Shown: positions 10,843-64,000 of the stretch, in pieces
Position numbering within the stretch: position 1 is the first letter of the stretch
How the letters are laid out: each line of letters starts with the position of its first letter
Virus record (IMG/VR): IMGVR_UViG_3300029286_000018
Location: 30,350 to 94,349 of that record
Origin: a virus
Strand: one strand, 5' to 3'
Length of the DNA stretch: 64,000 nt
Made by a program: the position numbers and the translations under genes
Notes under the pieces: model-generated
What the model saw: only the letters and a program-made list of their open reading frames with translations
Database searches by the model: none
Told to the model about the DNA's origin: nothing

Positions 10843-10873
10843 ATAATATAAAATTTTGAAAGGATTTACAAAC

Positions 10874-26231: not shown

Positions 26232-27287
26232 ATGTCAATATCAGTAGGCTATGATGTCGGTACAATGTTTTGTCAAATGGCTAAGCAGGACTCAGGTGGA
26301 TCCACTGCCATGTCCACTATTCGCAATGCTTTCGTTGAAATTCCAGAATCAGAAGATGTTGAGGAAGTTCTTTCTCGCAATGGATGGCAATGGGTTCGTG
26401 ACGGGAAAAGTGTTTTTGTTATTGGAGAAGATAGCGTTCAGGTTGCAAAGTTATTTCCAGGCAAAGTTGAGATACGTCGCCCTCTTCAGGATGGAGTTTT
26501 GAACAAGAACGAAGAGAAGAAAAATATAGTTCTCGCTTCTATCATAGAAAGTCAGTTAGGTAAGGCTATAGGTGAAGGTTCTGTTGTTGCAACTTGTATA
26601 TCTTCTCCGTGCATAGATGGTAGCGGAGACAGCACTTTTCATACTGCTCGTTTGAAGGGCATGTTCTCTAGACTTGGTTGGAACGTAAAGGTAATTGAGG
26701 AGGCTCTTGCTGTAGTTCTTAGCGAAAGACCTTGCGTAATTGATGACGATGGATCTGAAGTTCCTTATTCAGGTATAGGTATGAGTTTTGGAGCTGGTAG
26801 GGCTAACTGCATGCTAGCGTTTAAGGGAATGCCAATACTGGGAATGAGTGTTTCAAGATCTGGCGACTGGATTGATAAAATGGTTAGCGAACAGACTGGA
26901 GTTCCTATTGCTCAGGTAATGGAGACAAAAGAAAAGAAACTAGATTTTAATAAAATTGATATGGATAATGATGTAATGTTTGCCCTTGATGCTTATTATG
27001 ACGCCATGCTTAAGCATGTTTTCTCTTTATTTGCTAAAAAATTCAAAGAAGTAAAAAGCGATTTTAACAAACCGCTCGACATCGTTTTGGCTGGCGGAAC
27101 AAGCATGCCAAGTGGATTTGATAAAAAAGTTGATTCTATTGTAAGGTCTTTTGATCTTCCTTTCAAAATAAACTCAGTTAGAAAAAGTAAAGACCCAAGA
27201 AATTCAGTTGTTACTGGCTTGCTAACTCAGGCAGAAATAGTAAGACGTAAGTTGGAAAAAGGACAAATAACAAAGGATAGCATTTAA
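26232..27287 (+). CDS. MreB/ParM-like actin-fold (ASKHA) protein, 351 aa
   Basis: The nucleotide-binding motifs of actin-like proteins are in order. Phosphate-1 is GYDVGT (D8-T11). RPLQDGVL (about 83-90) is very like MreB. Phosphate-2 is GIGMSFGAGR (181-190), where the usual Asp is Ser185 and the usual Gly-Thr end is Gly-Arg. The adenosine motif is VLAGGTSMP (285-293). It has no membrane-binding helix. Phage actin-like proteins usually segregate or position DNA, but this gene is in the connector operon with overlapping starts, so a virion or assembly role is possible. Altered phosphate-2 residues suggest weak hydrolysis. GAGTAG precedes the ATG. Confidence 0.85.
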   Translation: MSISVGYDVGTMFCQMAKQDSGGSTAMSTIRNAFVEIPESEDVEEVLSRNGWQWVRDGKSVFVIGEDSVQVAKLFPGKVEIRRPLQDGVLNKNEEKKNIVLASIIESQLGKAIGEGSVVATCISSPCIDGSGDSTFHTARLKGMFSRLGWNVKVIEEALAVVLSERPCVIDDDGSEVPYSGIGMSFGAGRANCMLAFKGMPILGMSVSRSGDWIDKMVSEQTGVPIAQVMETKEKKLDFNKIDMDNDVMFALDAYYDAMLKHVFSLFAKKFKEVKSDFNKPLDIVLAGGTSMPSGFDKKVDSIVRSFDLPFKINSVRKSKDPRNSVVTGLLTQAEIVRRKLEKGQITKDSI

Positions 27288-30787: not shown

Positions 30788-31897
30788 ATGTCAGTAGAAG
30801 GACAACCATCATTTAGCGTTCCTCCACCGTTGGGTCTTGCAGATCCAACGGCTCGTCCAGCATATGCTGGATATTCAGGCTTTGTAACATACGAGGCCAC
30901 TCTTGGCGGTGCACTTAAGAAATATTTGCTACGCGCAGATCGCTGCAGCTTGAAGGGCACGCAAGCGATTGATACTGTCAAAGATATTGATGGTTCTATT
31001 GATTCAACCAGATATGCTTTAAAGTCTTTTGAAGTAAACGGGGACGTATCATTCAATCTAGACTCTGCTCCAGACAGCGTTGGGTATAAAGCTTTTGCTC
31101 AGCTTTATTCAGATACAGTGTTGCGCAGTGCAGATGGTAGACTAAAGATTAGAGAGGTTCCTGGATCTCGCAATATGCTGGTGCGCTACAACAGCGAAGT
31201 TTCTTATAGATATCTTGATATAGTTCCAAGCAAAATGAGCATTGAATGTGCTGCTGGTGAAGCATTGCGTGTCTCCGTATCCTTCATGGGTAGAGGCCGT
31301 GAGGGGCCATTTGATGGCACTACAGCTGTCATGGGTGATGGTCTTGGCGCTACCGTGGACGGTAGTGTCAATGTTGCTCCCGTGCGCGTAGTCACATATA
31401 ACGACGTTACTATTGACATAGAGTCTGCCCCTATTTCAACAGGCGTTGTTGTCAATACTCCTCCTAGCATTACTCGTCTCCCTTTAGTTAAGAGCTTTAA
31501 AGTTGATATCGACAACGCTGTTGAGGCTGTTCATACGCTCAGCGGAACTCTCGCTGCATATGACCTTGTTGCTAAGAAAAGAACAATTAGTGGAAGCATA
31601 ACATTCTTGGGTAGAAACAGAGACATTGGTGACTACGCATTGTATAATGAAATTGGTCAAACTTCACGTGCCAACTTGCTGTTTAATGTAAGATTTGGCA
31701 ACGTGACAAAGACTTTGTTCAAGTTACGTGGCGTGGTCTTTAAGATTGAGTCTATGGATCTCACTAATGACGTTCTAAACTCAACTATGGAATTTATGGC
31801 TCTTGGAGATCAAGCATTTAACTATGAATCTATTTCAGCTCTTGAAACTCCAAACACCAGTGCCAACGGATCTCAACATCCGTACCCATTCATTTAA
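30788..31897 (+). CDS. Major tail tube protein, 369 aa
   Basis: A GAGGAG site precedes the ATG. The sequence has the beta-rich pattern of phage tail tube proteins: FEVNGDVSFNLDS, then SYRYLDIVPSKMSIECAAGE, a Gly-rich loop, VKSFKVDIDNAVE and TISGSITFLGRN, ending with a conserved FKIESMDLTND. Codons are expression-optimised relative to neighbours. It lies upstream of the chaperone pair and tape measure, exactly as in siphoviruses. The absence of a sheath gene nearby supports a non-contractile tail. The gene is followed by a hairpin that may reduce read-through. Confidence 0.85.
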   Translation: MSVEGQPSFSVPPPLGLADPTARPAYAGYSGFVTYEATLGGALKKYLLRADRCSLKGTQAIDTVKDIDGSIDSTRYALKSFEVNGDVSFNLDSAPDSVGYKAFAQLYSDTVLRSADGRLKIREVPGSRNMLVRYNSEVSYRYLDIVPSKMSIECAAGEALRVSVSFMGRGREGPFDGTTAVMGDGLGATVDGSVNVAPVRVVTYNDVTIDIESAPISTGVVVNTPPSITRLPLVKSFKVDIDNAVEAVHTLSGTLAAYDLVAKKRTISGSITFLGRNRDIGDYALYNEIGQTSRANLLFNVRFGNVTKTLFKLRGVVFKIESMDLTNDVLNSTMEFMALGDQAFNYESISALETPNTSANGSQHPYPFI

Positions 31898-47400: not shown

Positions 47401-48133
47401 AGGATTCTCTGGACCCATTACGGTAAAAACACAAAGCAATATAAGCGCTAAGGTTACAGTTACCCCCGAGGCAGGAATGTCTGGCCTAGACTTTACCTTT
47501 ACCTTTAGGGTTGTGGTTAAAGCTTATGACAGCGTGACAAATAGATATTTGCCAATAGCTGGCTCTCCATTTAGAATAGAGAAAAGAATACATATAATAC
47601 CGCAGGGTACCACAGAAGGATCTGCTCAGTCTCCAGAGCTTTCATCTTTAATTAGATTTAATACAGCCACTATGCAAACCGAATTTGCTTTTGGAAAGGC
47701 TGACCAGTTCACTTTTAGTGACTTCACGCTCGGTGGGGTATATAAGCTATCTGATGGTAGATTGCTAGTCGGTGGTATTCAGAAAATTCCAACAGAGTTA
47801 CAATTTGATACTTCTCCACCTAATGATGATGGTTTTAGATCTCAGGCTTTCAATCTTTTGAAAACTTATCGTGGAAAAGTGTATTCGATAAGCTCAATAG
47901 ATAGTTCGGTTACTTTTAACTATGATAGTCCAGATGGGTTGTTTGTAAGTGATTGTTCTATGACATCTGATGGAGATGTGCTGGTTGCTGAGTCTTCTAT
48001 CGTGCAAAATTCTGGCAGGACGATAAAGATCGATGGATTCGGGAATATAAATTATGTGTTGTCTAATGGACAGTTTAGTATAATTAACCATGCAAGAGAA
48101 TCAGGCTCTGGCCACATTATCATCAGCACCTAA
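44465..48133 (+). CDS. Tail fibre-like protein with NHL/beta-propeller segments, 1222 aa
   Basis: The N-terminus (MAGKTRHFGLAYFDYKD) and an HKHNG segment near residue 165 resemble fibre base regions. Residues about 705-760 contain an NHL-type motif (GFDQPSSVQRLD, NRNYLVCDTFNHRVLEID). The last about 150 residues look like more propeller blades (LSDGRLLVGGI, then MTSDGDVLVAES). Between them is an Ig-like region, so the propeller may be split by an insertion. There is no signal peptide. It is likely a receptor-binding or fibre protein. Confidence 0.75.
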   Translation: MAGKTRHFGLAYFDYKDRLDTSVSVKLERDRFITIDDQLFGLFSIFGNGIVNGFRMSRDQAADGRSVLSIEPGTIFCRNRSYESTETQQLRNYPVNGEFYVYADIVSSTTGAKDLTIYASRSGSDLNAVRLARILTNNGEVTTIDFSYRNEISFRRIIESAVANHKHNGTVSKIDLIKEVKNALPGARLSSIDANKVKYGTFNKERIPQINHNDLKNKGIVSHAGLETLARSLQNVNRQLLGEVSSVNLMKHSLLLKRKFPNEAESTVNMVTFIPGITPDSAIDFANSSANISLPSNCISGRQAAGGRQISVKYFGTQALSNYSFINNCSVGQDVVFLNSTISSSTVQFKDSFENATGSDRPFPGLTAQAETVDNKITVRSDGYNIVSGLFSARFTSGKKDKAVYRRTVTTQNNWTSFNRLFLSVKCAQSPHPSVLFYVVNKNADNTTTESEKIQLLATDEVTLNPQVSNFKLVEIDITEYTKNNIQELVFEVIDASTEFIFYIDDIKTSSVSTSDIRYASTGSVRYRYSAPTQVVLETIIFSVQQEDNTSVQCRFRTGANIIELLNASFSGATASEDVIGTPCNLVEVEFTLRSNESQTATPKVKDLTLILVSQGGERRIEVNSLQEWQQGSYANVEFFQESNDNDYGLRIKTPLETNHIIYSSNNYVQQIKNAFANVPPSEANLSIFGYNGSSLLQCPQQIVSSTANNPASGFDQPSSVQRLDNRNYLVCDTFNHRVLEIDRSGGLVKGFGGAYVVENATQGGYVPLCANLNLQTGMLQICFDTDFASRDVINIQYLTIVIGQTELRLGDLDKNSNDNVPKNVVQIKLSDQKVQILKDTNISIFIKLDPRFIGEETFNTESATYSIAYGISGLRLTKFNFTYVKQIFHPIAAIEYSSTDWVVCNSLIRFDRIRAGLRQDIDEFFLPRSVDSTFYIIATLSSELQNQDVQVVFLNDPDAAQSANETSENVIVTNSNNLGFSGPITVKTQSNISAKVTVTPEAGMSGLDFTFTFRVVVKAYDSVTNRYLPIAGSPFRIEKRIHIIPQGTTEGSAQSPELSSLIRFNTATMQTEFAFGKADQFTFSDFTLGGVYKLSDGRLLVGGIQKIPTELQFDTSPPNDDGFRSQAFNLLKTYRGKVYSISSIDSSVTFNYDSPDGLFVSDCSMTSDGDVLVAESSIVQNSGRTIKIDGFGNINYVLSNGQFSIINHARESGSGHIIIST

Positions 48134-49238
48134 AGTAGATTATTATTCTTTTCTTGCACCAACTGGGTACACTCAGGCGGCTATGGATAATTTAAAGTCT
48201 ATGCAAGTGTCTGGCGTAGATATTGCTTTGCGTTGTGTTCACGGCAAAATGGTTGGCACAGGTTTCTCTGTGGCGGAAAGAAACTGGCTAGCAAGTTTGT
48301 TGTCTAAAAAACATTTAGGTATTGACGCCCAAATAGTCCATGCCATACCTCCACGATGGAACGTGATTCCTAGTAGCTCAAAAAGAATAGCTTTATTTGT
48401 TTTTGAAAATGAAGTCATTCAGCCTGCTTGGATCGACCAGCTCTCTAAGTGCATGGGGGTAATTGTTCCGTCGAGATTTAATCTTCATTCTTTACAAAAA
48501 GCAGGATTAAAAAATGTACATCTAGTTCATCATGCAGTGGATGTAAATATATGGAATAATGATATAAAGTCTCCTAGAATAGACGAATATAAGAAAATTC
48601 GAGTAATTACAGTTGGAACTTGGCGTCAAAGAAAGAATTGGAAATTAATGGTCAACTGCATGGCTGAAGCATTTAAGTCATTAGAAAATTTAGAATGGAC
48701 CATTAAAGTGGATAAAATCAATCCCGCAACTACTGAGATCAAGACTTGGCTGTCTGAATTAGGATGTCCTGATGTCTTGGGCACAAAAATTAAGATTGAT
48801 TCTAGAATATTGGACGAGGCATCTATTGCTCGCTTAGTTGGCGCTCATGACATCTTGTTGAGCGCCTCACTAGGGGAGGGTTTTGGACTTCCTGCCCTTC
48901 AGGCGTCCTTCCTAGGGCTTCCTGTGGTGTGTCCAAGGCATGGCGGCTATGAAGAGTTTTTCGATCCCATGTCTTATTTTGAGATAAAGGCATCTGGTTT
49001 TTCTAAAATACCTAAAATGGATAATCTTCCGCAATTCGATAATTTAGAGTGGCCAATATATGACAAGGATTCGATATTAGATGCCTTGTATTTATGTATA
49101 GGAAATCTCCCAAAAGCTAAGGAGCTTGCGCGTATTGTAGCAGAAAAAGCTGCTCAAAAGTTTAATCATAAAACTATTGGTACGTCATTTCTAAATGTTA
49201 TAAGTTCTTTCGATGCTATCACCAGTAATAAAAATTAA
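48090..49238 (+). CDS. GT4-like glycosyltransferase, 382 aa
   Basis: A GT-B enzyme: YYSFLAPTGYTQAAMDNL at the start, RWNVIPSSSKRIALFVFENE, then ITVGTWRQRKNWKLMV and LGEGFGLPALQAS. The last is the GT4 motif, but the second Glu of EX7E is Gln, a notable substitution. The start overlaps the fibre gene by 44 nt, and the stop overlaps the giant gene by 26 nt. No Shine-Dalgarno is seen. It lies between two fibre-like genes, so glycosylation of fibres is a good guess. Sugar and acceptor cannot be told. Confidence 0.86.
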   Translation: MQENQALATLSSAPKVDYYSFLAPTGYTQAAMDNLKSMQVSGVDIALRCVHGKMVGTGFSVAERNWLASLLSKKHLGIDAQIVHAIPPRWNVIPSSSKRIALFVFENEVIQPAWIDQLSKCMGVIVPSRFNLHSLQKAGLKNVHLVHHAVDVNIWNNDIKSPRIDEYKKIRVITVGTWRQRKNWKLMVNCMAEAFKSLENLEWTIKVDKINPATTEIKTWLSELGCPDVLGTKIKIDSRILDEASIARLVGAHDILLSASLGEGFGLPALQASFLGLPVVCPRHGGYEEFFDPMSYFEIKASGFSKIPKMDNLPQFDNLEWPIYDKDSILDALYLCIGNLPKAKELARIVAEKAAQKFNHKTIGTSFLNVISSFDAITSNKN

Positions 49239-52200
49239 CGATTTTGACTCTATTAGTGGCCTAGTCAGCGCTTCTTTAATCAATTTAGATTATAAGAAAA
49301 CATATAAGTTTGAATTTTCTAATATTAATTTTAATGTACTTAACGGTAGAATTTCTACAAATGTTCCAGATCTGGAAAAAATAGAACAACGCTCGCAAGT
49401 TGATTTTTCATTTAATGTAAAAAATGATGAAGACAAGTTTTTGTTTTGCAAGATATATGAGTGGGACCTTGACATGTGGAAAGAGGTCCATATATCAACT
49501 GCAGTCGTCTCAGAGCAAAAAATTATTTCTGTAGACTCTAACCTTATTCAGATAGAACAACCATATGTTGGTCCAAATGATAAAATAAGTGTTATAATTA
49601 AAGCCGAATCCGAGCACAGATACGATGTCAGAATTGACAAGAAAACTTTTGGTATTAAAACAGACAAAAACGGTGTCGGAAAGTTACTTGTCAATACAAT
49701 TAATGCCGTTGACTATCCAACATATATTGGCAAATTTGTTAAGAAAATTTCTTGCAGCCTTATAGATACTGTAAAAAAAGAAGCAATATCTTTGGCTGAA
49801 TGTGAATATGTCCCAGAGAATTTATATGCATTGGCGGCGACTAACGACCCTAATAGACCAAGCTGTGTAATACTAGATCCTGATCCAGTCGCTGTGTTTT
49901 CTGTTAATACTGATGCATTTAACGCTCAGTGTTTTCCTCAGCCTCTTGTTGGTTCTGCATTTACTACAAGTGGTTCTAACTTTGCGAATACTACTCGCCT
50001 TGATGATAGTTATATAAACTGCAATGATGGCTATGTCAGTTCAGCAAAAACAGTTGTTGATTCTTCTTGCAAAATATATCATCAGCCTCGCATGGCTCGT
50101 ATAGCTCCTGCTGTTTCCTCAGAAGCAGATCTAAGGCTGAATTCGCTTTATGGTTCAGGAAGTAGTCCAATTGATAAATCTGCGTGGTCATCTCGTCCAA
50201 TTGGATTTGTCTATAGTTCTTGTGATGCTAATGCAAATTCAGAGAATGTAAGTGTTGATCCATGCTCTTTTACTTCTCAGGAGATAAAGAAGATACCTAG
50301 AATCTTCCTTGGCTGCACCACAGATGCTACAAATGTGAAAATATTTGGTCTTGCTAGAGGGATTTTAAAGGCTCCTCCTGCTTATTTTCATAGCATTCTG
50401 GTTGGAGATCCATCTGTTGTTTCTGGAGTATTTGAAGACGGAGACATAGTAAACGTAGTTTTTGATCTTCCTTCTGGGGAAAGAATTTCTAAATCTTTAG
50501 AATATCAGTCGTCAACCTATTCGTCTTTGGCTGCATTTATAACTGCATTTGCTTCTGAAATATCTTCAGATGAAAATATAACTAATGCTGGAATTAGCGT
50601 AAGAGTTTATACAGATAAATATAGAATTGACGTTTATTCTGATACAAAGTTTAATATATATGCTGGTCAAGTTAATTATGTTGACAGTGAAACTGGTAAT
50701 TATAAGACTAATAACAAAATTTATATTATAAGAGATTCAAAATATACTTTTGATTTTGAGATAACAAGTCCAGTAAATTATGATGATATAAAAACTTTGC
50801 TTTCCTCTGGCGCTACTCATATGCTTTTCTTGGACAGTCAGTTTAAAGGTATGACAGTTTCTATTACGCAGTCTGAAGATAAGGGAACAATTGTACTCGA
50901 TACATGTCCAAGAGTTACTCAATCTCGTCGTGGTCTCGGAGCTTTTGTTGTGTCAGAAGACACTAATTGTGTCCATGTGGCATTAATAAACGACTCAAGA
51001 GTTTCTGATGATGACGGAACAAAAGTTACTGCATTGCCATTTGCGCGTAATAGTTTTAATGAAGTAATTCCATCTTCGAATCCTGTTATCACAAAATTCG
51101 GTCACGTATTTTGTCAGGCCTTGATTGACAATAAGTGGCAAATATTTTCTTACTTCCCTAGTTTGAGCGACTCTCCGTGGTTGCAGTTAACTTATAATGG
51201 AGAAAATAGAAACGTAAGCGCATGTTCTGATGGCTTTGGAAATGTTCATTTGTCTTGGGAGACAGACAGATATGGGTATACTTCTGTGCAGTATGCGTGT
51301 ATCGGTCCTTCTTCTAAGCTTATCAATCGACTCAGCTTATCTGGAATGATATCCAAGCAATTTGTAGATGAGTTGTATGAAAAAACGTTTACAATCAATC
51401 CTTTAGAGAGTGCTGTTAATTTTGTCCAGCAAAGTTCCGCCAATATAAGTTTGATTCCAGAAACAAGTTTAATTAGTCTAGTAGAAGGTGCTCAAATAGG
51501 TGGAGGTAGTTTCAGTATAGCTAGAGAGTTTACTGGATATGTGCGCATAGAAAAAGACGAATTTAATGCACTTATCACAGAGAATCGCAGCGTCAAGCTT
51601 GGCTTTGTTGATTGGGGCCTAAAAGTTCAGCCAAATATAAATTTAGGAGATTATTGCACTAGCTATCTCGTTCACTTTGAACAAGTGGGAACAGAGACTG
51701 GACAGACGCTAAGCTCATTATTCTCAGCAAAATTTAATGGTAAAATTTTAAGAGTATTTGCTTCTCCTACTGATTTTGGATTATCTTCTAAGTATTTTAG
51801 GTCAAATAGAATTTCTTACCCATCTAATTCAAGCGTAACATTTGACAACAATGGGCTTGTTGAGAGTGGGTCCATATCTGTTGGTTCTGATGAGACGACA
51901 TTAGATTTTTCTTTTTCCTATCTAGATGGGGGTGGAACGGGACCGCTTGAATTTAGAGTTCTGGTGGAAGGTGTAAAAAATCAATCTTCTATTGAGCAAT
52001 CTAATTGGAATAGAATATTCTCAAACAATGGTCGAGTCAGTGTGTCTGAGGATACAGCTGTATGTGTAGAATGTGCGCCTAGTAGTGACTGTGCCGTTGC
52101 AACCTTGTCTGTATCTCAAGATCATAATGGAACATATTTTCAGGGCCAAGAAGCGGAAATTAATATATCTGCTCATGCGCTTTGCAGTATTGGACCTAAA

Positions 52201-55200
52201 TCAACTGACAAGATATCTCCAATAGGATTTGGCATACAAGATGTTTTTGAGAGTGACTACATGGATTTGATTGAGCGCACCGGTGGTTACAGTAGTCCAT
52301 GGGATTTGATTAGTCAACCAATACATTATGTATCAGAATTTTCTGGAGAGCCAGGCTTTACGCAGACAAGGCAATACGCATCAAAGTATAAAGATCAGTC
52401 AAATTCTCCGATTGTAAGTTTTGAAGATAATGACAATAGATATTTCCCTGGATTCTTTAATAATTCTAAGGTGCAGTCATTTACTGTATCTATTAATGCA
52501 GGTTTTCTTGTAGATAATGTTGTTAGAGAAATTTCCTTTCAACATCCTATTTTGGCTCTTTACATTGATCAGACTGACTTGGATTCAACCGATCTTTCTC
52601 TGGGGAATGGATCAGCTAATCGTGCAAATCTGCTGCCAGATCAGGGTGTTAAGATAACGGTCAACAAATCAAGAACTACACTCAAAGTTTCAATGCCAGC
52701 AGCCATTGAAGTAGATTTTAGTATTCGTGTAGTTGTTTCTTCCGAGCAATTTGACTATCCATTTGAAATAAAAGATGACAAGAAAATTAATGGATTGTAT
52801 AGTGACTTTTTAAATGGTTTTGTAAAATCACCCGATGAGTCTTACTTGTTGGCAAATAACAAGTTTACTATTAGCTCTACAGATAAGCGCTATGATGAAA
52901 TCATTCCTTTACTTGGATTTTTAAAATATGATGATATCAATATAAATCCAAATGCATATGCTGCTAACTTTAATAATTTAACTTCTATTATCTATAACGT
53001 AGATGACATAGACACCACAACATGTAGCGATCTGGTGTCTCAGGGCACATACAGACTGGATGATCAATTTAATCTTGATGGAGATGATGCACATGTGCAT
53101 CATGCATATGTTTGCGTAATTCCAGAACGTGTTTCATTTATGGCTAGAAATAATGAGACTCTTGATGAATATGTTCTTAGAACAAAATCTATAGCTGGTT
53201 ATAGAGAGGCGATTGTCAAAGATGTTTACACTGGATATGGAAAAGTATTTATCATAAATAATAGTATTTCTTCTTCCAGCAAGAGAACTAGCATATCTCT
53301 TGGTACAACAACAAAAATATCAGATCTTCCATCTGTTGATTTATCCGGCTCTTTTAGAGTACAAGTTGATGGAAATTATTCAAGACTAAGCGAAGAAGAT
53401 AAAAAGCTTCTTTCTAATTGGTCGTATCCATCTAGTGATGTCTTTTATCCATCTTCTAAGTCACATCCGAATTACCATTTTATGTGTAATGTTTACATAA
53501 ATGATAAGCCAATACTTTCTCATAATGCTCAAGTCGATTTGGGCGACAAAACGCGTCAATGGGAGGTTGGGTTTGGCTCACCATTTGGTCAGTACCCTGT
53601 TTGTAGAAGCTCTGATGCAAGTTTCTTAGACTTGATGTCTAATAAAAACTGGTCAATTGATTATTCTGATATTAGAATTGGGAATCCAAGAGTTATAGTT
53701 GATCCACGCATCACGGACGCTAGTGCCATAAATGTTTCTAGTGTATTTATTTCAAAATTAGTACCAAATTCTGATTCGAATGTGCAAAACGAGTCTTTTG
53801 CTCAATCTCTGATTGACCCAGGCGATTGGGTTTCCCTTGAGCATGGCAGCTTACTTATTGATGGATGGGAGACATTCAATGGAGGCGCAGTATACGTTGG
53901 TTCTTACACTGCATACACTCCAAGTAAGCGTTCAGTTCTTCTTGAATCATGCATGATATATAATGATAGCTCCCCTGTCAGTTATGCATCATATCCGCAA
54001 TACAAGTCTAGAAGAGGAAGAATTTCTACTGGACAACATGGTGGAATTAACCAAACGGCAGGGACTTTAAAGCCAAATGAAATGCATCAAATATCTTTGA
54101 CGACTGGTATGCGTCAGGTGCAAGAAAGCTATCCTAAGCTGCAAAGATCTATTTTAGTTCAGGCTGATACATCAGTATTTACATGCAGGCACACTCCTGG
54201 AGTAGGCGAATTTGTTGGCCCAAATTCACAGCTTGACTATAAGACATTTAGATCATCTTTCATTCCAAGTTCAAGTAGTTTTGATGTGTATATAAGAAAT
54301 GTTTCAGAAAACCTGAATAATTTATTTTCTTACTTTCCGCTCAACACTGTTGACTATACCGAATCATATGGAATTGACCCGTTCACAGGTCACGAGCAGG
54401 GCGCTTTGACAAAAGATGTTATATTTTATGTGGATGCTAGTGGAGTGTTAAAGCTTTATCAATCGTACTCTGGGGCAAGTGGGTTAATTGTAACGGAAGT
54501 TGAATTGTCAGATCCTCTTGAAATTGTCGCAGTTGATTCTCGCATTAAGTATACAAGTGAAACTAGTCAAAATCCATTCTGTGTTGCAGTGACTTACAGC
54601 GGCTTTTTGCAAAGTTTTACTTACGATGGAACAGAAAATAATATACCTAACTTTGTAAATCAGTCAAATTTACCATCCGCACAAGGTTTTGTCTCTGTTT
54701 CTCTTGGATATGACCACGCATGCGCACTAAAGTCTGACGGTACAGTTGTATGTTGGGGTAGTAATACGTATGGTCAAACTGCAGTGCCATCTGGCTATAA
54801 GTTTGTGCAGGTAAAAGCTGGTCAATATTTTACAATTGGCATTAATGAAAGCGGAGATATTATTGCTTGGGGCAGAAATAACCATGCTCAAGTGTCTCCA
54901 GTGCCATCTGGCAAGTTTGTAAAGATTGATGCAGGCGCTGAGCATGCAGTTGGCATTAAGTTTGACGGAACTGCTGTTTCATGGGGAAGAAATGCAAATA
55001 CCGGTGACCTTGTCGATCCTACAGTAAAATTAATTGATGTTGCGGCTTGTGGCGGAAATATGTATAGTCTTAGCACATACTCAGATTCATCATCTTCATC
55101 ATCTTCTATGGGGACTTATAACGTTGAGCCATTCAATGTCGGTATTGATATAAATGGAAATGTTATTAAGTGGGGTATGTGGAATGATGCATTTACAGCT

Positions 55201-58200
55201 TCTGGTAGGGAAAAATTTCACGCTGTACCATCTATTCCTTGCGTTGCAGTGAAACATGGAATTAAAAGTTGTTTGCTTTTGGGTATAGACGGAAAAGTGT
55301 ATGCTCATGGAATCGCATTTGGTCCATCTGAGCCTGATTCAGCTTCCAACATAAATTCAGTTTACAAAACAGATCTTGATTTTGCTTCTGGTGGTCCTTT
55401 TATTGAATCGGTATATTCTTATGCAGAGTCAGATTTGATAGAAGAAGATGTAGATGTTGAGGCTTATCGCTTGTTCGGGATGGCGTCTAGTGATGCATTT
55501 AACCAGTCATATGGCTTGCCGCTGTTGAATAGTTTTTCAAGTATTCCTTTGTCTTGGCAGTACGGTAATTTACAAAAGTCTCCATCATGTGAAGTTGACA
55601 AATTTAATAAATGCACTTTGATTTGGGAAGATAATTCATATGGAGTATGGGGTATATATGAGTCTTCTAATATTTGGATTAATAGATCATTTAGTGATCG
55701 TATATTCCTTTCTGATAAAGAAGTGCCTTCATTACGTCCTTCTATTGCTTCTGATGGAGCTGGTAGAAGAGCTGTAGTCTGGGAATCCATTTCTGGGGAT
55801 AGTCATGCAATACGCATGGCTTCTCACATTAAGCACCCTGATTATGCTTCCGACTGTGATGTTGATAAGGTAGTTTCAAACAGCAGGCTCCTTGGCTTTG
55901 ATCCTGATCCATATGATCCATATAATGTAGAGCAGTCTTTGATGTCTTGCAAGGTTGACCTGTCATTTACCGCACCAGAATTTGGCAATTACTTCTTTAG
56001 TATAGCATTTAAAGATTTGAGTGATGTTAATATTATATATAAACAATCTTCTTCTAAAACTGAATCTGGTAAATGGCTTATAAATGGCAAGTTCATATCA
56101 TATGATGGACAAGTGATTGCTCAAGGAGAAACCGTAACTGTATCTTATGTCCCAGATTCTAACGATAATGTTTTTAATAAAGTTTTAAAAGTTGAGCTTA
56201 CCTATAGTACCGAAGAGACATCTGGTGAGTCTATGCTATTCTATGCCAGCAAGTCAACGCAGGTCACGCCTGGAGTTACTTGGTGGATGAATGATTTATT
56301 CCCAGTGACTGTGGATTATCCAGTCTCTATTAATGGTTCTGCTAGAATACCATATTTAAGTGAATATATGGTATTTGCAGAAGCTGCCAAAAACTGCCCT
56401 GTTACTATTCTGCCACAGGGTGCTGGGTATTTTGAAACTCAAGGAGTTGGAAAAGATCAAAACTTTATATTCCCTTCTGGGGTTTCTAGTCTTCCAGGCG
56501 TGACAGCTGGAACATTCGTAAAGAGTTTCTTGTTTGTTCTTGGAGATGATGATGGTACTACCTTGAATCCAGTAGAGGCCACACTGTCATTCAATCAGCC
56601 AATTGTTGCCGTATTAATAGATGAGGAAAATATGCAGTTCAGTGATGGGTATTTCACTGACCCACTGGCTCCCATCAATGTGTCACGCAAAAATGTAGTA
56701 GATACTTTTCAGTTTTATGATGGTGAGTACATGAGACTTGATGAGGACCGAAAGAAGTTGCATATAAGATTTTATCAACCTCGCAAAGCAACATGGCCAA
56801 CTCCTCTGACAAAAGTGTCTCCTAAAGCACTCAAAGGATTTGTAACTGCATCTCCTACAGTCACTGACACTCCTATAGCCACTGACACTGCAGCGACTGC
56901 TTCTATTAATCTTGGGAAGGATGAAGCGAGTATTGTATCTTTTTCTGAGGAAACATTAGGGCCACTTGTATCTCAAGAAAATATAAAACCTTACGCCACA
57001 TTTAGAGTTATTGTGGCGAACACTGGTCGTGTTTCTGGTCAAATTGTCACCACATATTTTTGCCCAGCTCCTCTGCGTGCTCTATGTAAGATAAGTACTG
57101 CTTACACCAATAATTCATCTCAATCTAAAGATGTTCATTTTAAGGTTTCTGTTTATTCAGATTCATCTTACAAAGATGCAATCATGGCATTTAATTCCAA
57201 AACAGATGCAAGACTTTGGTCTAGCGGAAGTAATGTATTCCCGGTAAATGGTATAACTATTTCTCCAAGCGCAACAGGTTCTGTTAGCTTTGCTCCACCT
57301 ATCATTAACATTCAAAATGGTCAATATCCAATAGACGAATCTTCTGTAAATACGCAAACACGAGCAAGTTCTATATATGACTATTATAATTTGGCAAGAA
57401 CTTCACTTATATGCGGAATCAAATATTATATCATCGCAGAAGCTACTGTTAATAATGATGATATAGAATTGTACAGAACATCATTTCTATGTGGTTGTAA
57501 CGACAATCTTTTTGACAGAGAGGACGAGTCTGAGTGGCGTAGTGTGATGAATAGTTCAATTAATACTGTGATAGCTTCAGCAAAATGGTATATTGGTAAT
57601 CCAAGTGTGAGTGCAACAAGAAATGGTTTATTTGCAATTTCATGGGAAGATTCCCGATCTAGTGCAAATTTAAATGGCCTTAATAATAAGGAAAATCAGA
57701 ATTTAGACATATATTGTGGCTTCTTTGATGCAATCAATGATTCAGTTGATTCAGCATATCATGCTGGAATTGATCGTTTGTTGTTAAATAATTCAGTAGC
57801 AGACGATGTCGCAATAAGAGATCAAAGACTTCCACAATTGATTTCAGATCCTTTTGGTAATTTTACTATGTTTGCGAGCAAAGATTACAATAAGATTATA
57901 AAGCGTTATTTCAGCGTTGGCTCTAAAGTCACTCCAAATATAATAGTAGAGTCTGCAATTACAACTGCATGCTCCTTTACCCTTACTGATATTAATACTT
58001 ATCAAACTGCTTTTGATGGTGGCGAATTTATGCAGATTCGTGTTAATGATAAATTCATAAAGGGGTATAAATCTATTGCTGCGGCTGCTCCAGCTCCAAT
58101 TGTGAATGATTGCTTTGTTGATTTAGAAATAATTGGAATACCTGGCGCAATGGCATATCGCATTAAGAATGAATCGGAATCAGACTTTACCGACTGGATA

Positions 58201-59052
58201 CCTATTAACCTTCCATTGCAGCCGCTTGACAGTGCTGGCAAGGCAATAAGTCTAGACGCAAGTGTTTTCCGTGAAACATTTAAAGGTAGATGGATAGCAA
58301 ATGATATATTTACTGCTCCCTGGGTGCTCAGTAAGGCCGATGGAGTTAAAAGAGTTTGTATAGAAATTTTGACTCAATTTGGCAAAACTCAGCAGTTCTG
58401 CATGGATATTATTGCCGAATACGCATCACTATCTTATATTGTAGAAATATTCTACTCACCTATTGATTCAAACAGCAAGTTGTTTAAGCCTGTTCGCTAC
58501 AAGGGCATACCTGTTGTTAATAGAAAAACATATTATAGTCAAGCTACAGACTCTCAGTCAGCAGTCACTATTTCAAAAGAAGATTTACGTAGCTTGGACT
58601 TAGACTCTTATACTGAAGTAGATGTTTATGTGCAGGTTACTTTTGAGGATGCAGAAAGAATAGCTAGACTGGATGCCCTAAATAGTATTTCTAGTTATGC
58701 TAGTCGCCGTAAAGATAACGGTTCTATGCAGCTTTCGCTATATCAGCAAGGAAATCGAGTACAGACAGCTTCGCTGGTTGTCAGTGATGCTGTAAACGGA
58801 ATTTATTATGGAAAATTTAAGATAAATAAAAATAATGGGGTAACAGACAAAGATGGGCTTGCATTCGTATTTGTGGATCTCCCGTCAGAGTGCCTTAATC
58901 CGTTTGTTAAGAATTTTATATCTGTATTAAGACTGATAAATGATCAAAACCTAGATATGTCTCAAGCAAAAGTCGTTGACTCAAATGCATTTATTGAGCA
59001 GTATATACAGAACGATAAGCGTAATGCTTTCGGTAAGAGGAGGATTAACTAA
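49213..59052 (+). CDS. Giant tail fibre/adhesin-like protein with RCC1 repeats, 3279 aa
   Basis: By far the largest gene. It is Ser/Asn/Tyr-rich and mainly beta. An RCC1-type propeller lies at about residues 1830-2040, with repeats such as DHACALKSDGTVVCWGSN, IIAWGRNNHAQ and AVSWGRNANTG, then IKWGMW and VYAHG. BNR/Asp-box-like SDG-type segments occur elsewhere. A domain with LSFNQPIVAVLID near residues 2430-2530 matches one near residues 1076-1180, suggesting internal duplication. Ser-rich linker at about 1958-1965. No signal peptide. The start overlaps the glycosyltransferase and the stop overlaps the next ATG (TAATG). A fibre or adhesin is the best guess. Confidence 0.78.
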   Translation: MLSPVIKINDFDSISGLVSASLINLDYKKTYKFEFSNINFNVLNGRISTNVPDLEKIEQRSQVDFSFNVKNDEDKFLFCKIYEWDLDMWKEVHISTAVVSEQKIISVDSNLIQIEQPYVGPNDKISVIIKAESEHRYDVRIDKKTFGIKTDKNGVGKLLVNTINAVDYPTYIGKFVKKISCSLIDTVKKEAISLAECEYVPENLYALAATNDPNRPSCVILDPDPVAVFSVNTDAFNAQCFPQPLVGSAFTTSGSNFANTTRLDDSYINCNDGYVSSAKTVVDSSCKIYHQPRMARIAPAVSSEADLRLNSLYGSGSSPIDKSAWSSRPIGFVYSSCDANANSENVSVDPCSFTSQEIKKIPRIFLGCTTDATNVKIFGLARGILKAPPAYFHSILVGDPSVVSGVFEDGDIVNVVFDLPSGERISKSLEYQSSTYSSLAAFITAFASEISSDENITNAGISVRVYTDKYRIDVYSDTKFNIYAGQVNYVDSETGNYKTNNKIYIIRDSKYTFDFEITSPVNYDDIKTLLSSGATHMLFLDSQFKGMTVSITQSEDKGTIVLDTCPRVTQSRRGLGAFVVSEDTNCVHVALINDSRVSDDDGTKVTALPFARNSFNEVIPSSNPVITKFGHVFCQALIDNKWQIFSYFPSLSDSPWLQLTYNGENRNVSACSDGFGNVHLSWETDRYGYTSVQYACIGPSSKLINRLSLSGMISKQFVDELYEKTFTINPLESAVNFVQQSSANISLIPETSLISLVEGAQIGGGSFSIAREFTGYVRIEKDEFNALITENRSVKLGFVDWGLKVQPNINLGDYCTSYLVHFEQVGTETGQTLSSLFSAKFNGKILRVFASPTDFGLSSKYFRSNRISYPSNSSVTFDNNGLVESGSISVGSDETTLDFSFSYLDGGGTGPLEFRVLVEGVKNQSSIEQSNWNRIFSNNGRVSVSEDTAVCVECAPSSDCAVATLSVSQDHNGTYFQGQEAEINISAHALCSIGPKSTDKISPIGFGIQDVFESDYMDLIERTGGYSSPWDLISQPIHYVSEFSGEPGFTQTRQYASKYKDQSNSPIVSFEDNDNRYFPGFFNNSKVQSFTVSINAGFLVDNVVREISFQHPILALYIDQTDLDSTDLSLGNGSANRANLLPDQGVKITVNKSRTTLKVSMPAAIEVDFSIRVVVSSEQFDYPFEIKDDKKINGLYSDFLNGFVKSPDESYLLANNKFTISSTDKRYDEIIPLLGFLKYDDININPNAYAANFNNLTSIIYNVDDIDTTTCSDLVSQGTYRLDDQFNLDGDDAHVHHAYVCVIPERVSFMARNNETLDEYVLRTKSIAGYREAIVKDVYTGYGKVFIINNSISSSSKRTSISLGTTTKISDLPSVDLSGSFRVQVDGNYSRLSEEDKKLLSNWSYPSSDVFYPSSKSHPNYHFMCNVYINDKPILSHNAQVDLGDKTRQWEVGFGSPFGQYPVCRSSDASFLDLMSNKNWSIDYSDIRIGNPRVIVDPRITDASAINVSSVFISKLVPNSDSNVQNESFAQSLIDPGDWVSLEHGSLLIDGWETFNGGAVYVGSYTAYTPSKRSVLLESCMIYNDSSPVSYASYPQYKSRRGRISTGQHGGINQTAGTLKPNEMHQISLTTGMRQVQESYPKLQRSILVQADTSVFTCRHTPGVGEFVGPNSQLDYKTFRSSFIPSSSSFDVYIRNVSENLNNLFSYFPLNTVDYTESYGIDPFTGHEQGALTKDVIFYVDASGVLKLYQSYSGASGLIVTEVELSDPLEIVAVDSRIKYTSETSQNPFCVAVTYSGFLQSFTYDGTENNIPNFVNQSNLPSAQGFVSVSLGYDHACALKSDGTVVCWGSNTYGQTAVPSGYKFVQVKAGQYFTIGINESGDIIAWGRNNHAQVSPVPSGKFVKIDAGAEHAVGIKFDGTAVSWGRNANTGDLVDPTVKLIDVAACGGNMYSLSTYSDSSSSSSSMGTYNVEPFNVGIDINGNVIKWGMWNDAFTASGREKFHAVPSIPCVAVKHGIKSCLLLGIDGKVYAHGIAFGPSEPDSASNINSVYKTDLDFASGGPFIESVYSYAESDLIEEDVDVEAYRLFGMASSDAFNQSYGLPLLNSFSSIPLSWQYGNLQKSPSCEVDKFNKCTLIWEDNSYGVWGIYESSNIWINRSFSDRIFLSDKEVPSLRPSIASDGAGRRAVVWESISGDSHAIRMASHIKHPDYASDCDVDKVVSNSRLLGFDPDPYDPYNVEQSLMSCKVDLSFTAPEFGNYFFSIAFKDLSDVNIIYKQSSSKTESGKWLINGKFISYDGQVIAQGETVTVSYVPDSNDNVFNKVLKVELTYSTEETSGESMLFYASKSTQVTPGVTWWMNDLFPVTVDYPVSINGSARIPYLSEYMVFAEAAKNCPVTILPQGAGYFETQGVGKDQNFIFPSGVSSLPGVTAGTFVKSFLFVLGDDDGTTLNPVEATLSFNQPIVAVLIDEENMQFSDGYFTDPLAPINVSRKNVVDTFQFYDGEYMRLDEDRKKLHIRFYQPRKATWPTPLTKVSPKALKGFVTASPTVTDTPIATDTAATASINLGKDEASIVSFSEETLGPLVSQENIKPYATFRVIVANTGRVSGQIVTTYFCPAPLRALCKISTAYTNNSSQSKDVHFKVSVYSDSSYKDAIMAFNSKTDARLWSSGSNVFPVNGITISPSATGSVSFAPPIINIQNGQYPIDESSVNTQTRASSIYDYYNLARTSLICGIKYYIIAEATVNNDDIELYRTSFLCGCNDNLFDREDESEWRSVMNSSINTVIASAKWYIGNPSVSATRNGLFAISWEDSRSSANLNGLNNKENQNLDIYCGFFDAINDSVDSAYHAGIDRLLLNNSVADDVAIRDQRLPQLISDPFGNFTMFASKDYNKIIKRYFSVGSKVTPNIIVESAITTACSFTLTDINTYQTAFDGGEFMQIRVNDKFIKGYKSIAAAAPAPIVNDCFVDLEIIGIPGAMAYRIKNESESDFTDWIPINLPLQPLDSAGKAISLDASVFRETFKGRWIANDIFTAPWVLSKADGVKRVCIEILTQFGKTQQFCMDIIAEYASLSYIVEIFYSPIDSNSKLFKPVRYKGIPVVNRKTYYSQATDSQSAVTISKEDLRSLDLDSYTEVDVYVQVTFEDAERIARLDALNSISSYASRRKDNGSMQLSLYQQGNRVQTASLVVSDAVNGIYYGKFKINKNNGVTDKDGLAFVFVDLPSECLNPFVKNFISVLRLINDQNLDMSQAKVVDSNAFIEQYIQNDKRNAFGKRRIN

Positions 59053-60557
59053 TGGCAACTCCTGCAACGCCCGTACTTGAATATCCACTTGGTTCTGAAT
59101 CTATTTCAACTAAAATTATTGAGATAAAATGGAAAGCGCAAAATGCTACAGTTGGTCAATTTGACCCAACTTATTTGTACGAAATTTTATATAAAAGTGC
59201 TGATCCTATTTTGGCTGCTCAGGCAGGCTGGGAGAGATTAGCAACACTGCCTTCTTCTTCTCAGCTATATAATTGGATTATTCCTGAGTATCTTTTTGGT
59301 TCTAAGATAATGATAGCTGTTCGTTCATTGTCAAAAAATGGAAATGGTTCTAGTTATGCTCAAAGTGGTATTTTTGAAATTGAGCCTAAACCTTTACCTA
59401 AGCCTTCTGTCTCAAATCCAGTTGCAGGCAAGGTCTATGGTTCACAAATAGTGATTCAATTAAACAACCCTATGCTCATAGAAGATACATCCAAATTAAA
59501 TAGATATAGAATTAACTTGTATTATTCGAGTCCAAGTAATTCAGTATCTTATGCTCCAATAATAGAAAGAATTTCTGGTTCAACCACTCAGGTTATATGG
59601 GAAACTTCGCAGTTAAGTCCAGCTGATGATTATGTAATGTACGCTTTCTATAGTGATGACTTTGGCAGAAAAGGCCCCCAGGTGTCAATAGGTCCGTTTG
59701 TTGTTGAGAACCAGGGGTACATGTTGATCGACACGGACGGACCAGAAGTTGCGGTTAAAATAAATTCATTGAATGGATATTTAAAGAATAGAGATATAAG
59801 TGTTGAACTATATGCATATGATGAAATTGATGACATTCATGGATTTAAATTAATAGAGAATATCAGAACCTCTGCTGGTGACATTGCTGAAGTGATGGCA
59901 AGTGAGCCAAGGTTCTATCAAAAGAATAATTTCTTATCACTGTCAGACGTTGATGGCTCTTATGTGATTACAGCGCTTGTTGAGGATTTGGGTGGAAATC
60001 GGGCTAATGAGGAAGACGCCAGCGCTGTAAAAGTTCAAAATAAATATAGAAAGTTTTTTAGTAAAAATAACTTTAAAATTACCGCACTTGCTAAAACATC
60101 AGACAGTCTATACGCTTGTATGTATGATGGAACTTATACTCAGGTAATAAGAGTTAAAGATGGTAAAGTATATTTCATAAGTTCTTTTCCTGGAAGAATT
60201 ATTGCTCTTGCAGTCATAAATGAAAAAATATATGGTAGTAAATTTAACTCAGATAGAGTATTAGAATTGGTTTCTATTGAGTCTACGGGTTTAGTGCCAC
60301 TAATATCCCTTATGTCTCCTGATACGGAAATGTCTGCATTACATGACTCAGGTGACTCTGGAATATTGTTGGGATGTATCAATGGTGATGTATATAGATA
60401 TTTTAATCAAAATATTACACTTTTAAGAAATTTAGGATCTGGAATTTCTAGTATGTATCCTGGTCAATTTAGTTCAGTTTTTATATTGACTCAGAGTTCC
60501 GAAAAAGTATTTATATACAACGATGGAATTTTAAATAAAGTACAAATAACTATTTAA
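59052..60557 (+). CDS. Tail protein with FN3-like domains and a propeller-like C-terminus, 501 aa
   Basis: TAATG coupling joins it to the giant gene. Residues about 1-110 and 115-225 look like FN3/Ig-type domains (PVLEYPLGSES, then IEIKWKAQN; VIQLNNPML; YVMYAFYSDD). A third similar beta part with EVAVKINSLNG follows. The last about 160 residues have blade-like repeats (ALAKTSDSLYACMYDG, then IIALAVINEKIYG), suggesting a beta-propeller. Predicted to be part of the fibre tip. No catalytic residues seen. Confidence 0.73.
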   Translation: MATPATPVLEYPLGSESISTKIIEIKWKAQNATVGQFDPTYLYEILYKSADPILAAQAGWERLATLPSSSQLYNWIIPEYLFGSKIMIAVRSLSKNGNGSSYAQSGIFEIEPKPLPKPSVSNPVAGKVYGSQIVIQLNNPMLIEDTSKLNRYRINLYYSSPSNSVSYAPIIERISGSTTQVIWETSQLSPADDYVMYAFYSDDFGRKGPQVSIGPFVVENQGYMLIDTDGPEVAVKINSLNGYLKNRDISVELYAYDEIDDIHGFKLIENIRTSAGDIAEVMASEPRFYQKNNFLSLSDVDGSYVITALVEDLGGNRANEEDASAVKVQNKYRKFFSKNNFKITALAKTSDSLYACMYDGTYTQVIRVKDGKVYFISSFPGRIIALAVINEKIYGSKFNSDRVLELVSIESTGLVPLISLMSPDTEMSALHDSGDSGILLGCINGDVYRYFNQNITLLRNLGSGISSMYPGQFSSVFILTQSSEKVFIYNDGILNKVQITI

Positions 60558-60558
60558 C

Positions 60559-63500
60559 ATGAATTATATTAAACCATTATTTCGCATCGATAGACGGCCA
60601 ATAGTAAAAATCAATTGCGCCAATATTCTGAATGACACCAATTCAGACTTGCGAAATTTACCATGCCCAGACTTTAACAATGACGGAATTGTTGACTCAA
60701 AAGACTTGGGAATCTTGACGGCAAATATAGGAACACGTAATAGTCTTTACGATTTAAATGGTGACGGGATAGTTGATATCGGTGATGTAAACTTATTAAT
60801 TTCATATTATGGTCTACTTAATTGCGCTCAGTGGAGTGGATCTGCATATAGCAACGTATGTAATTCTGCAAGAATGAGTAGAGGCGTTGCTTCCCTTTGT
60901 CAGCCTAACGGGTTTTATAATTTTTTCAATATTAAGTTACAACGATTATATGATGCTGGAGTAAGGCGTTTTGTTTTGCAGTGTCCGTCTGGAACTTTTA
61001 GTAATACTATTTTGTCATCTAATATTCGTGACCCGTTTGATGCTAGTGGTGCATATAGCGTGTTGACATCACAGACCAAAGAAGTTCTTAATTGCAATGA
61101 ACCTGGTATTCCATTTGACAAATCTAATAATATTAGTGGTGGTTATTTTGAAAGCTTTCGTGGCCTTATGAGGGAATGGGTTGGTTCATTAGGCGAAAAT
61201 GTTGAAATATTTATAGAAATTAATTCTTCTGTTTTGATGCTTGGTGCAGAAGTTGATTATAGCAACATAATGCTCAGAGCTGATTTAGGGGATTCGCACT
61301 TTTATGAAAGCTTTGATCCAGACAATATAAAGCACGTCGAATGGTTGAGCTACAATACTCAAGAGATGGACACCGATGGGTTGTCTGGCATAGCCCTTAA
61401 TAACTTTGGGGCAAAATCTTTAGGTAGATTTGATGGGTACAAAAACATAAATCATTTTATGTCCTCAACTTTTAATGGACAAGAAGTGATGTGTACCAAT
61501 TTACCAAATATCAATGGAAATTTATATAATTTTGAAGAGTATTCAAAGTGTAAATTTGTATTTGATCAAGATAATTTTAACTTGGCAACATTCAATAAGA
61601 TGGCGAATGCTCGCTTGTTCCAGTATAATGCTGAGATTCACGCAATTGCTTCAGCGAATATATCAAAAAGTGAGTCTGATTTTTATGATCTTGCTTATAA
61701 TTACGGATGTGTTCCTGGCCTTAAGCTTACCTACAATGACGACATTGACGTTGGTTCAGTTTCTTCTGCTATTGGCAGAATGAAAAACGCGATTGAATCT
61801 GCTGAAAGAAAGATATCACTAGGACAAAACGGTAGAAAGTTTTACTTGTTTAGCGAATATGCGGGAAATACTGCAGATTCTAATAACGTAGTTTCCTCCA
61901 AGAATAATTACTTAAGATCTGATTTAGCAAAAGCAAAAGACACTATAGTCCCTGTAATAAAAGCAAATTGCTCTGTAAATATTAGCAATTTATCTATTGA
62001 CATAGCTCGTACGTATATTCCAGCATGGTGGTTTACAAATAATCGTCAAAGCTGCATCGATAGTTCGATGCTTAATTTTGTTTCAGATTCATGGACTGTG
62101 CCAAATAGTTCAAGCATTTTAAATGCTTCTGTGCCAAGTCCATATGGTACTATTGGTCCAGAAAAATGTGCAGATGCTGTTTTTGATCAGAATATTTATT
62201 ATCAAATATTTTATAATGGCACTTCTGCAGCAAAGATAGATTTCAAGCAAAGCAAAAATTTTATAGTAAAATTAGAAAATTGGGGAGATTTGCATGATCA
62301 CATTTATAGTGATTCTCCATTTGAAGGCACTACTTTGGATCAAAATGGGTGGTGTCGTCTGTTTACGCATGGAGCAGACAAAGTTCGTCCTTATCGGGAC
62401 AGCGATTTGAACCTTGACTACAATCCGATAGACCCAGCAAAAAATCTCTTTGCATATAATGGTTCACAAGAATGCGCCATGTGGGTTAAGCGTTTCATCG
62501 CAAGATTTAAGTGGAGGCAAGGTTATCTTGCTTCTTATGATGCAGATTATGTGGTACCAAGTCCTTCCTTGATTTATATAGATGAACAAACTACAATTCA
62601 AGTTTCAGATTTTATTAATTATAAAAATGTAAATACAGGGCTTATGTCTCGTAAATATTTCGGCAGTTGGTTTAATCATTTCAATGATTCTCGTTATTCA
62701 TTGCAAACGATTGGATTTAAATGGCGTGATTCAGTTAGTTTAAGCGATGCTTTCTTTGCAGCTACAAGTCAATATTCTAATGAATTCTCAGTAATTCGCA
62801 CTGATGGAAATAGTCAAAGTACTTTCGGTAAAATTCTTCCTAGCGATTATAAGCCAACGTCAAATCAAGTTACTTATGACAATCAGTCAAATGCAAGCAT
62901 GGAAAAATGGCTGCAAATATTGATTGATGAAGTTGTTGCTCGTCGTGTTTACGAATCATTTGGTGTGCAGGTAGAAAAAGCATTTTCTAATGGTAGATAT
63001 TCGCAAAAAGGATTTGTTGGTTATGTTCCAAGTTCAGATTTGTATGGCAATATACATGCTCCATTCTACCCCCTGATTAATAGATGGCAAAATTATAATG
63101 GTAAATATGGATTTAATGATGTAAAGTCATCTTCATTTCTAGTCTCATATATTCATCCTGTTTCTGTAATAGCAAGTAAATTTGCTTCCACTAAGCTTGG
63201 ATGGTCTCCAAGTATTTTAAATTCCGACATTAATATAAGGTTTGAAATTTTAGATTATTATAGTTCAGCCTTTAGTGGTGATCTGCAAAATTCGCAATGG
63301 GGATGGCCTATTTTTTACAATAATGATTCAGATGATCGTGGATCATATATTTACGGAACTGGTAACTCTGATTTTGCTACTGGCTATTCAATAGGTGATG
63401 CTCATCAAAGATCTTTACGTACAAATTTAATTTACAACCACAAAAAATATATTAATTATTTACTTAATACAATTGATTCTCTTGACAGCAATTCTACATT

Positions 63501-64000
63501 TTATAATAACTTGAAAGTTATTTTCACGCATGGTGTAAATATTGGTAATATAAAAAATATAGTGCTTCCAAAAACTGTTTCCAACATAGGAGATCTATCT
63601 ACCGGATCAATACTATCTAGTGACTCTGATGGATATACATTTGATCAAAAGACTTTTTCTGCGTCATACTCTGAATATGCTAAAAAAGTAGTAAATTCAT
63701 CGATACCAGAAAAGAATGTAGTTTTTATTCACAGTCATCCTAATCACAGTATATCTGACTGGAATGAGCTTATCTATGGAATTGATCAGGCAATTAGTTT
63801 ACCATTCGCGCTGCGTTCAAGCGTAAATCCGAATCAAACCGACGCCGGTGGTGGCCTATCCACTGATGATGATAGTGGTTCTTCTGGTAGCTCTAGTTCT
63901 TCTAGATTACTTGGAGACATTAATGGTGATGGAATTGTTAATAGTCAAGATTTGGGTGAATTGCTTGGTAGCTGGGGTCCTTGTCTTGGGTGCCCTGCGG
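60559..64000 (+). CDS. Partial giant protein with dockerin-like repeats, runs off the window
   Basis: Open from ATG 60559 to the window end with no stop (more than 1147 aa). Near the N-terminus are two calcium-loop motifs (DFNNDGIVDSKDLGIL and DLNGDGIVDIGDVNLL), as in type I dockerins. A third, DINGDGIVNSQDLGELL, is followed by SWGPCLGCP close to the window end. The middle is a large domain with YNYGCVPGLKLTYNDD, FSEYAGN and IPAWWF, perhaps an enzymatic or sugar-binding fold that I do not recognise. A Ser-rich linker (GSSGSSSSS) precedes the third motif. Likely a fibre or adhesin whose dockerin-like parts bind calcium or a partner. Confidence 0.75.
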   Translation, partial: MNYIKPLFRIDRRPIVKINCANILNDTNSDLRNLPCPDFNNDGIVDSKDLGILTANIGTRNSLYDLNGDGIVDIGDVNLLISYYGLLNCAQWSGSAYSNVCNSARMSRGVASLCQPNGFYNFFNIKLQRLYDAGVRRFVLQCPSGTFSNTILSSNIRDPFDASGAYSVLTSQTKEVLNCNEPGIPFDKSNNISGGYFESFRGLMREWVGSLGENVEIFIEINSSVLMLGAEVDYSNIMLRADLGDSHFYESFDPDNIKHVEWLSYNTQEMDTDGLSGIALNNFGAKSLGRFDGYKNINHFMSSTFNGQEVMCTNLPNINGNLYNFEEYSKCKFVFDQDNFNLATFNKMANARLFQYNAEIHAIASANISKSESDFYDLAYNYGCVPGLKLTYNDDIDVGSVSSAIGRMKNAIESAERKISLGQNGRKFYLFSEYAGNTADSNNVVSSKNNYLRSDLAKAKDTIVPVIKANCSVNISNLSIDIARTYIPAWWFTNNRQSCIDSSMLNFVSDSWTVPNSSSILNASVPSPYGTIGPEKCADAVFDQNIYYQIFYNGTSAAKIDFKQSKNFIVKLENWGDLHDHIYSDSPFEGTTLDQNGWCRLFTHGADKVRPYRDSDLNLDYNPIDPAKNLFAYNGSQECAMWVKRFIARFKWRQGYLASYDADYVVPSPSLIYIDEQTTIQVSDFINYKNVNTGLMSRKYFGSWFNHFNDSRYSLQTIGFKWRDSVSLSDAFFAATSQYSNEFSVIRTDGNSQSTFGKILPSDYKPTSNQVTYDNQSNASMEKWLQILIDEVVARRVYESFGVQVEKAFSNGRYSQKGFVGYVPSSDLYGNIHAPFYPLINRWQNYNGKYGFNDVKSSSFLVSYIHPVSVIASKFASTKLGWSPSILNSDINIRFEILDYYSSAFSGDLQNSQWGWPIFYNNDSDDRGSYIYGTGNSDFATGYSIGDAHQRSLRTNLIYNHKKYINYLLNTIDSLDSNSTFYNNLKVIFTHGVNIGNIKNIVLPKTVSNIGDLSTGSILSSDSDGYTFDQKTFSASYSEYAKKVVNSSIPEKNVVFIHSHPNHSISDWNELIYGIDQAISLPFALRSSVNPNQTDAGGGLSTDDDSGSSGSSSSSRLLGDINGDGIVNSQDLGELLGSWGPCLGCPA

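Follow-up and report, generated by a model that had tools for sequence, protein, structure and literature searches.

A tail-region gene at the end of a phage contig from an environmental metagenome encodes three dockerin-type calcium loops, and the last of them opens a dockerin whose type, in our searches, is elsewhere confined to proteins of Planctomycetota. The gene has phage-type codon usage and lies in the setting of a tail operon, a similar dockerin is present as a cassette in a related phage, and modules have been gained and lost among the relatives. The reading that we favour, at roughly even confidence, is that the product is a structural protein from the tail region of a tailed phage, which has acquired dockerins of its host, most likely a member of the Phycisphaerae, and uses them for docking on the host surface.

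The window analysed here comprises bases 30350-94349 of a 94,349-nt IMG/VR contig, i.e. its last 64,000 nt; the record is classed as linear. The head and tail module on the contig includes a recognisable portal gene and a weak match to a head-tail adaptor, and giant tail-region genes follow the tail tube gene in series. The genes that are needed for the argument are the following (window coordinates).

10856-11746, + strand: major head protein (phrog_2522, E 7.6e-63), which served as query for relatives
30788-31897, + strand: tail tube protein (PF18906 and phrog_290)
49213-59052, + strand: giant tail-region protein with RCC1 repeats, 3279 aa, whose homolog in the related phage G005 bears a dockerin cassette
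59052-60557, + strand: 501-aa tail-operon protein (p501), directly upstream of the dockerin gene; its homologs precede the equivalent gene in the related phages G006 and G007
60559-63999, + strand: tail-region protein with the dockerins; at least 1147 aa are encoded before the contig ends, Pfam Dockerin_1 scores above cutoff and the operon is syntenic with that of relatives

The dockerin gene is the last gene of the tail operon and runs off the contig end. The order of the RCC1 giant, p501 and the dockerin gene is the same in G006 and G007. We rejected the possibility that the reading frame resumes at the other end of the contig, as in a circular genome, since the record is linear and its first bases lie in another open frame, which is tail-fibre-like. 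Elsewhere on the contig, a Volactin-family viral actin homolog (26232-27287 of the window; PF25216, E 4e-54) lies between the capsid and tail genes, and a homing-endonuclease family protein is encoded at 11868-13517. At contig positions 20948-24025 (L003:5549-8623) there is a 1025-aa protein with an intein splicing domain and a LAGLIDADG endonuclease, which by its position is perhaps the terminase. The tail operon also contains, beside giant Ser-rich tail proteins, a glycosyltransferase gene (48090-49238) that is retained in G005; as a speculation, its product might glycosylate poly-Ser linkers.

Within the dockerin gene, the modules are arranged as follows.

60661-60822, + strand: N-terminal dockerin pair, aa 35-88, PCPDFNNDGIVDSKDLGILTANIGTRNSLYDLNGDGIVDIGDVNLLISYYGLLN; taken alone, this segment scores 26.4 bits with PF00404
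60670-60705, + strand: calcium loop 1, DFNNDGIVDSKD
60751-60786, + strand: calcium loop 2, DLNGDGIVDIGD
63874-63903, + strand: Ser/Gly-rich linker SGSSGSSSSS, which precedes the C-terminal dockerin; in relatives, inserted modules are bordered by poly-Ser linkers
63910-63999, + strand: first half of the C-terminal planctomycete-style dockerin, LGDINGDGIVNSQDLGELLGSWGPCLGCPA, whose second repeat is lost at the contig end
63916-63951, + strand: calcium loop 3, DINGDGIVNSQD, which opens the C-terminal dockerin
63970-63996, + strand: inter-repeat signature SWGPCLGCP; GPC-x-GCP is also found in host dockerins

The original prediction had placed a dockerin repeat with SWGPCLGCP at 63850-64000, in a phage fibre, and two motifs like it near the start of the gene. 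Both motif claims were confirmed: the + strand encodes DINGDGIVNSQDLGELL...SWGPCLGCP at 63916-63996, within an open reading frame that extends from 60559 to the contig end, and loops 1 and 2 are the two motifs near its start. The proposed extent needs correction, as the dockerin proper starts at about 63910, behind the Ser-rich linker, and the module is truncated, with the sequence stopping before any stop codon. The calcium-loop repeat pattern D-x-[ND]-x-D-G-x-[IV]-x-x-x-D occurs exactly three times on both strands of the window, each time in the dockerin gene, where shuffles lead to an expectation of 0.00. For the long C-terminal motif there is one occurrence where 0 are expected, and the exact signature DLGxLLGxWGPC is present at 63916-63984. 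The whole protein scores 28.2 bits with Pfam Dockerin_1 (PF00404), above the gathering cutoff of 22.9. Both loop repeats are present in the N-terminal pair, which is 53% identical over 55 aa to a GC-type dockerin of Phycisphaerae (L150), and one is present in the C-terminal copy before the contig ends. With three complete EF-hand-like loops, the protein is predicted to be calcium-bound, as had been proposed.

The term fibre was borne out only in part, in so far as the gene closes the tail operon. For the body of the protein itself there is no match to a PHROG or Pfam family and no confident match to a fold, and the AlphaFold model of the whole protein (pLDDT 29) does not predict a fold; the label thus rests on gene position. 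The sole PDB match to the profile of the protein, mL77 (E 2e-4), is not credible as a function and was discarded. The reading as an adhesin is plausible.

To find relatives, we searched viral contigs with the head protein, which resulted in 102 related stretches, of which 80 were kept, on contigs of up to 548 kb; the dockerin search of these relatives covered 50 whole records. A direct search of viral contigs with the whole dockerin-bearing protein revealed no close relatives, and its relatives were reached only via the whole records of head-protein relatives and by profile. No relatives were found in a search with a 1222-aa tail protein. In G005, whose head protein is 84% identical to that of the window phage, the RCC1 giant protein contains a dockerin of the same style, DLDGDGFIGGGDLGVLLGNW...DLDGDGAVGGSDLGILLGNWG, flanked by poly-Ser linkers. 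This dockerin lies inside a segment of about 417 residues that is missing from the window homolog (window residues 1323/1330 flank G005 residues 1262-1679). Other dockerins are carried by G017 and G023. G006 and G007, which keep the operon order, encode a homolog of the dockerin-bearing protein (26-30% identical over a part of its length) that lacks a dockerin; thus, the dockerin is not essential to the tail. These two homologs (L179:6857-12550 in G006, L180:5394-9395 in G007) are 84% identical apart from a subtilase domain, which is bounded by poly-Ser in G006 where G007 has a single poly-Ser linker. To judge from two cases, this phage group seems to exchange extracellular modules as cassettes, with poly-Ser linkers as the points of exchange.

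We propose that the phage would have acquired its host's own dockerins, one pair at the N-terminus and one near the C-terminus on a Ser-rich stalk, and that these modules would fold with environmental calcium. The C-terminal dockerin of the virion could then dock on the surface partner that retains the dockerin-tagged proteins of the host, which may be a cohesin or a diverged functional equivalent. Such docking would help the virion to adsorb or to stay on the cell surface. The N-terminal pair might have this function too, or might connect the protein with the tail. We give about an even chance to the step of docking on the host surface.

The modules could instead act inside the virion as glue or spacer, either as calcium-stabilised structural modules or by binding another tail protein, with no host contact and with the host-like sequence as a record of origin. 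The N-terminal pair sits at the position of a possible tail-attachment domain, and none of the motif-bearing genomes has a host cohesin above the cutoff, both of which are in line with such a role. So is the 2148-aa baseplate-wedge protein of another viral contig (IMGVR_UViG_3300032302_000043, L196; 2369-8815, minus strand), which adjoins another baseplate wedge gene. It starts with a baseplate-wedge domain and ends with a C-terminal domain without assignment; between the two, about 27 EF/dockerin repeats in tandem form an array that looks like a calcium-stabilised stalk on the baseplate. However, the C-terminal module in the window keeps the full host signature including GPC-x-GCP, with 23 of 29 residues identical to the closest host copy (L106), which exceeds the needs of a generic spacer. 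Furthermore, the gain and loss of modules between close relatives fits surface-exposed specificity modules, and no cohesin was noticed in the contig at the sequence level. We regard a purely intravirion role as possible, though unlikely.

Dockerins also occur on viral proteins of a secreted type. A looser dockerin pattern detected 17 viral stretches, among them that of the baseplate-wedge protein above, one with a dockerin in a collagen-type tail fibre, and those of the subtilase and the five cohesin-like proteins described next. A subtilase with an N-terminal hydrophobic segment and a C-terminal planctomycete-style dockerin (L186:13104-14525) is encoded beside phage structural genes, on a contig that has a tail sheath gene, and G023 has a dockerin on a possible protease. 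Five further proteins, L200:657-1424, L190:7455-8354 and those of L192, L193 and L195, combine a cohesin-like first domain with a C-terminal dockerin, some of them with apparent signal peptides. The first domain had no match in Pfam in the two of these five that were scanned. In a low-confidence model (pLDDT 53), its top eight PDB matches are all cohesins, none of them below E 0.001. A profile of this domain matched three of 70 genomes (69 tied to the Planctomycetota set and a record labelled Hyphomonas), in one of them beside Pfam cohesins. Such proteins are consistent with a mimicry of the host secretome, in which the dockerin anchors phage-borne enzymes or other proteins on the host surface or matrix for retention or superinfection exclusion and not for adsorption. 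The protein in the window has no evident signal peptide and belongs to the tail operon, which argues against this explanation here, and we consider it improbable.

The original prediction had noted a likeness to repeats of Planctomycetota, which is strongly supported by the distribution of the motif in bacteria. We searched a GTDB data set with one genome per species (84,980 species genomes) with a degenerate DNA pattern for D-x-[ND]-GDG-x-[VI]-[ND]-x-x-DLG-x-LLG-x-WGPC. All 46 matching stretches, from 15 genome records, are from Planctomycetota, mostly of the class Phycisphaerae, when one record labelled Hyphomonas is included; the pattern was written from the phage motif itself and thus measures the spread of that motif and not of dockerins generally. 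In the record in question (NHBW01000010.1, L117, labelled Hyphomonas sp. TMED17), the stretch is identical to one on the Phycisphaerae MAG contig NZFT01000063.1 (L100), so that the record is likely mis-binned or mislabelled. The host motif ends at most 40 residues before the stop codon in 41 of the 46 cases. An independent model, that for GC-type dockerins in NCBIfam, NF041540, has 16-94 matches per genome in all 14 motif-bearing Planctomycetota genomes, whereas it matches two of 249 genomes in the control phylum, that of the Hyphomonas record, one of them through the shared contig, and none of 14 named control genomes. Dockerins are found in many phyla, and the N-terminal pair alone also resembles sequences on Nostoc plasmids (45% identity) and solved clostridial dockerins, as would be expected if a generic EF-hand or dockerin fold had converged and the motif were uninformative on the host phylum. 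The absence of the C-terminal motif from every other phylum in this data set, for a pattern built from that motif, makes such convergence very improbable.

A host contamination or chimeric assembly could be suspected, as the C-terminal motif lies within the last 90 bases of the contig, but it is refuted for practical purposes by the phage-type GC3 of the motif (0.27, with 0.25 for its gene and 0.86 for host copies, minimum 0.70), by the second dockerin pair 3 kb upstream in the same open reading frame and by the mid-gene dockerin of the related phage.

A Phycisphaerae-like host is probable. The predicted host in Planctomycetota is upheld as likely by the motif distribution, and the CRISPR check that had been suggested neither supports nor refutes it. 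Among 1,694 spacers in 76 arrays, obtained from 67 of 100 Phycisphaerae cas1 loci, there was no convincing match: the best matches of 16-20 nt were no better than those of shuffled or reversed spacers, except that one spacer of 52 nt partially matched another contig, over 20 nt. Distant homologs of the head protein are present in four of 392 Planctomycetota genomes and in none of 389 control-phylum genomes. With identities of only 26-35%, these prophage data are weak support and too few for naming a host. The GC content of the phage (about 37%) is far below that of the motif-bearing host contigs (59-73%), which counts against this host. No cohesin above the Pfam cutoff was found in the 14 motif-bearing genomes, and we therefore do not name the docking partner; 18 of 101 Phycisphaerae genomes have such a cohesin. 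The partner may have diverged, or GC-type dockerins may function in some other way.

Compared to known systems, the phage modules share two EF-hand repeats with GC-type dockerin domain-anchored proteins (NF041540 dockerin_GC), in which the host motif is mostly C-terminal. They differ in that the N-terminal pair scores 18.2 bits, under the curated cutoff of 29, the C-terminal copy, truncated after one repeat, gives no match, and they sit on a protein from the tail region of a phage. As in cellulosomal type I dockerins (PF00404), the calcium loops are complete and the score exceeds the gathering cutoff; here, the carrier is a phage protein outside a cellulosome context, with no named cohesin partner and putative cohesin binding. 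A cohesin-dockerin 'planctosome' has been proposed for the Phycisphaerae family Nemodlikiaceae (PMC6461901). It likewise involves cohesin and dockerin modules outside cellulose degradation and in the same bacterial class; however, it is a hypothetical complex of host proteins, whereas the module here is on a phage. The case is best placed among phage tail proteins with interchangeable host-like extracellular domains (collagen, RCC1, LamG, Ig-like), with which it shares a surface-type domain and modular gain and loss; here, the module is the host's own dockerin tag. A dockerin in that role was found neither in 50,697 GenBank phage records, which gave no match in a tblastn search with a planctomycete-type dockerin consensus, nor in a literature search for dockerins on phage tails. 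The nearest published case is an E. coli phage with a structural resemblance to a cellulosomal carbohydrate-binding module (PMC5967307).

More broadly, and only tentatively, unrelated Planctomycetota phages may use the dockerin-based protein-retention system of their hosts as a receptor. They would carry host-type dockerins, gained via poly-Ser-flanked cassettes, on baseplates, fibres and giant tail proteins, and adsorb at docking sites meant for secreted host proteins, with some phages encoding secreted cohesin-like and dockerin proteins of their own; we hold this generalisation to be rather unlikely. The known phages of Planctomycetota are few in number, and for phages assembled from metagenomes the host is usually missing. 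A tail protein that bears a module specific to one host lineage provides a host label readable from sequence, which can also be used on other viral contigs. Furthermore, the Phycisphaerae have dozens of GC-type dockerins and no obvious cohesin, which raises the question of what these dock to. A phage with a copied dockerin tag may have found the partner, and its module could serve as bait for fishing it.
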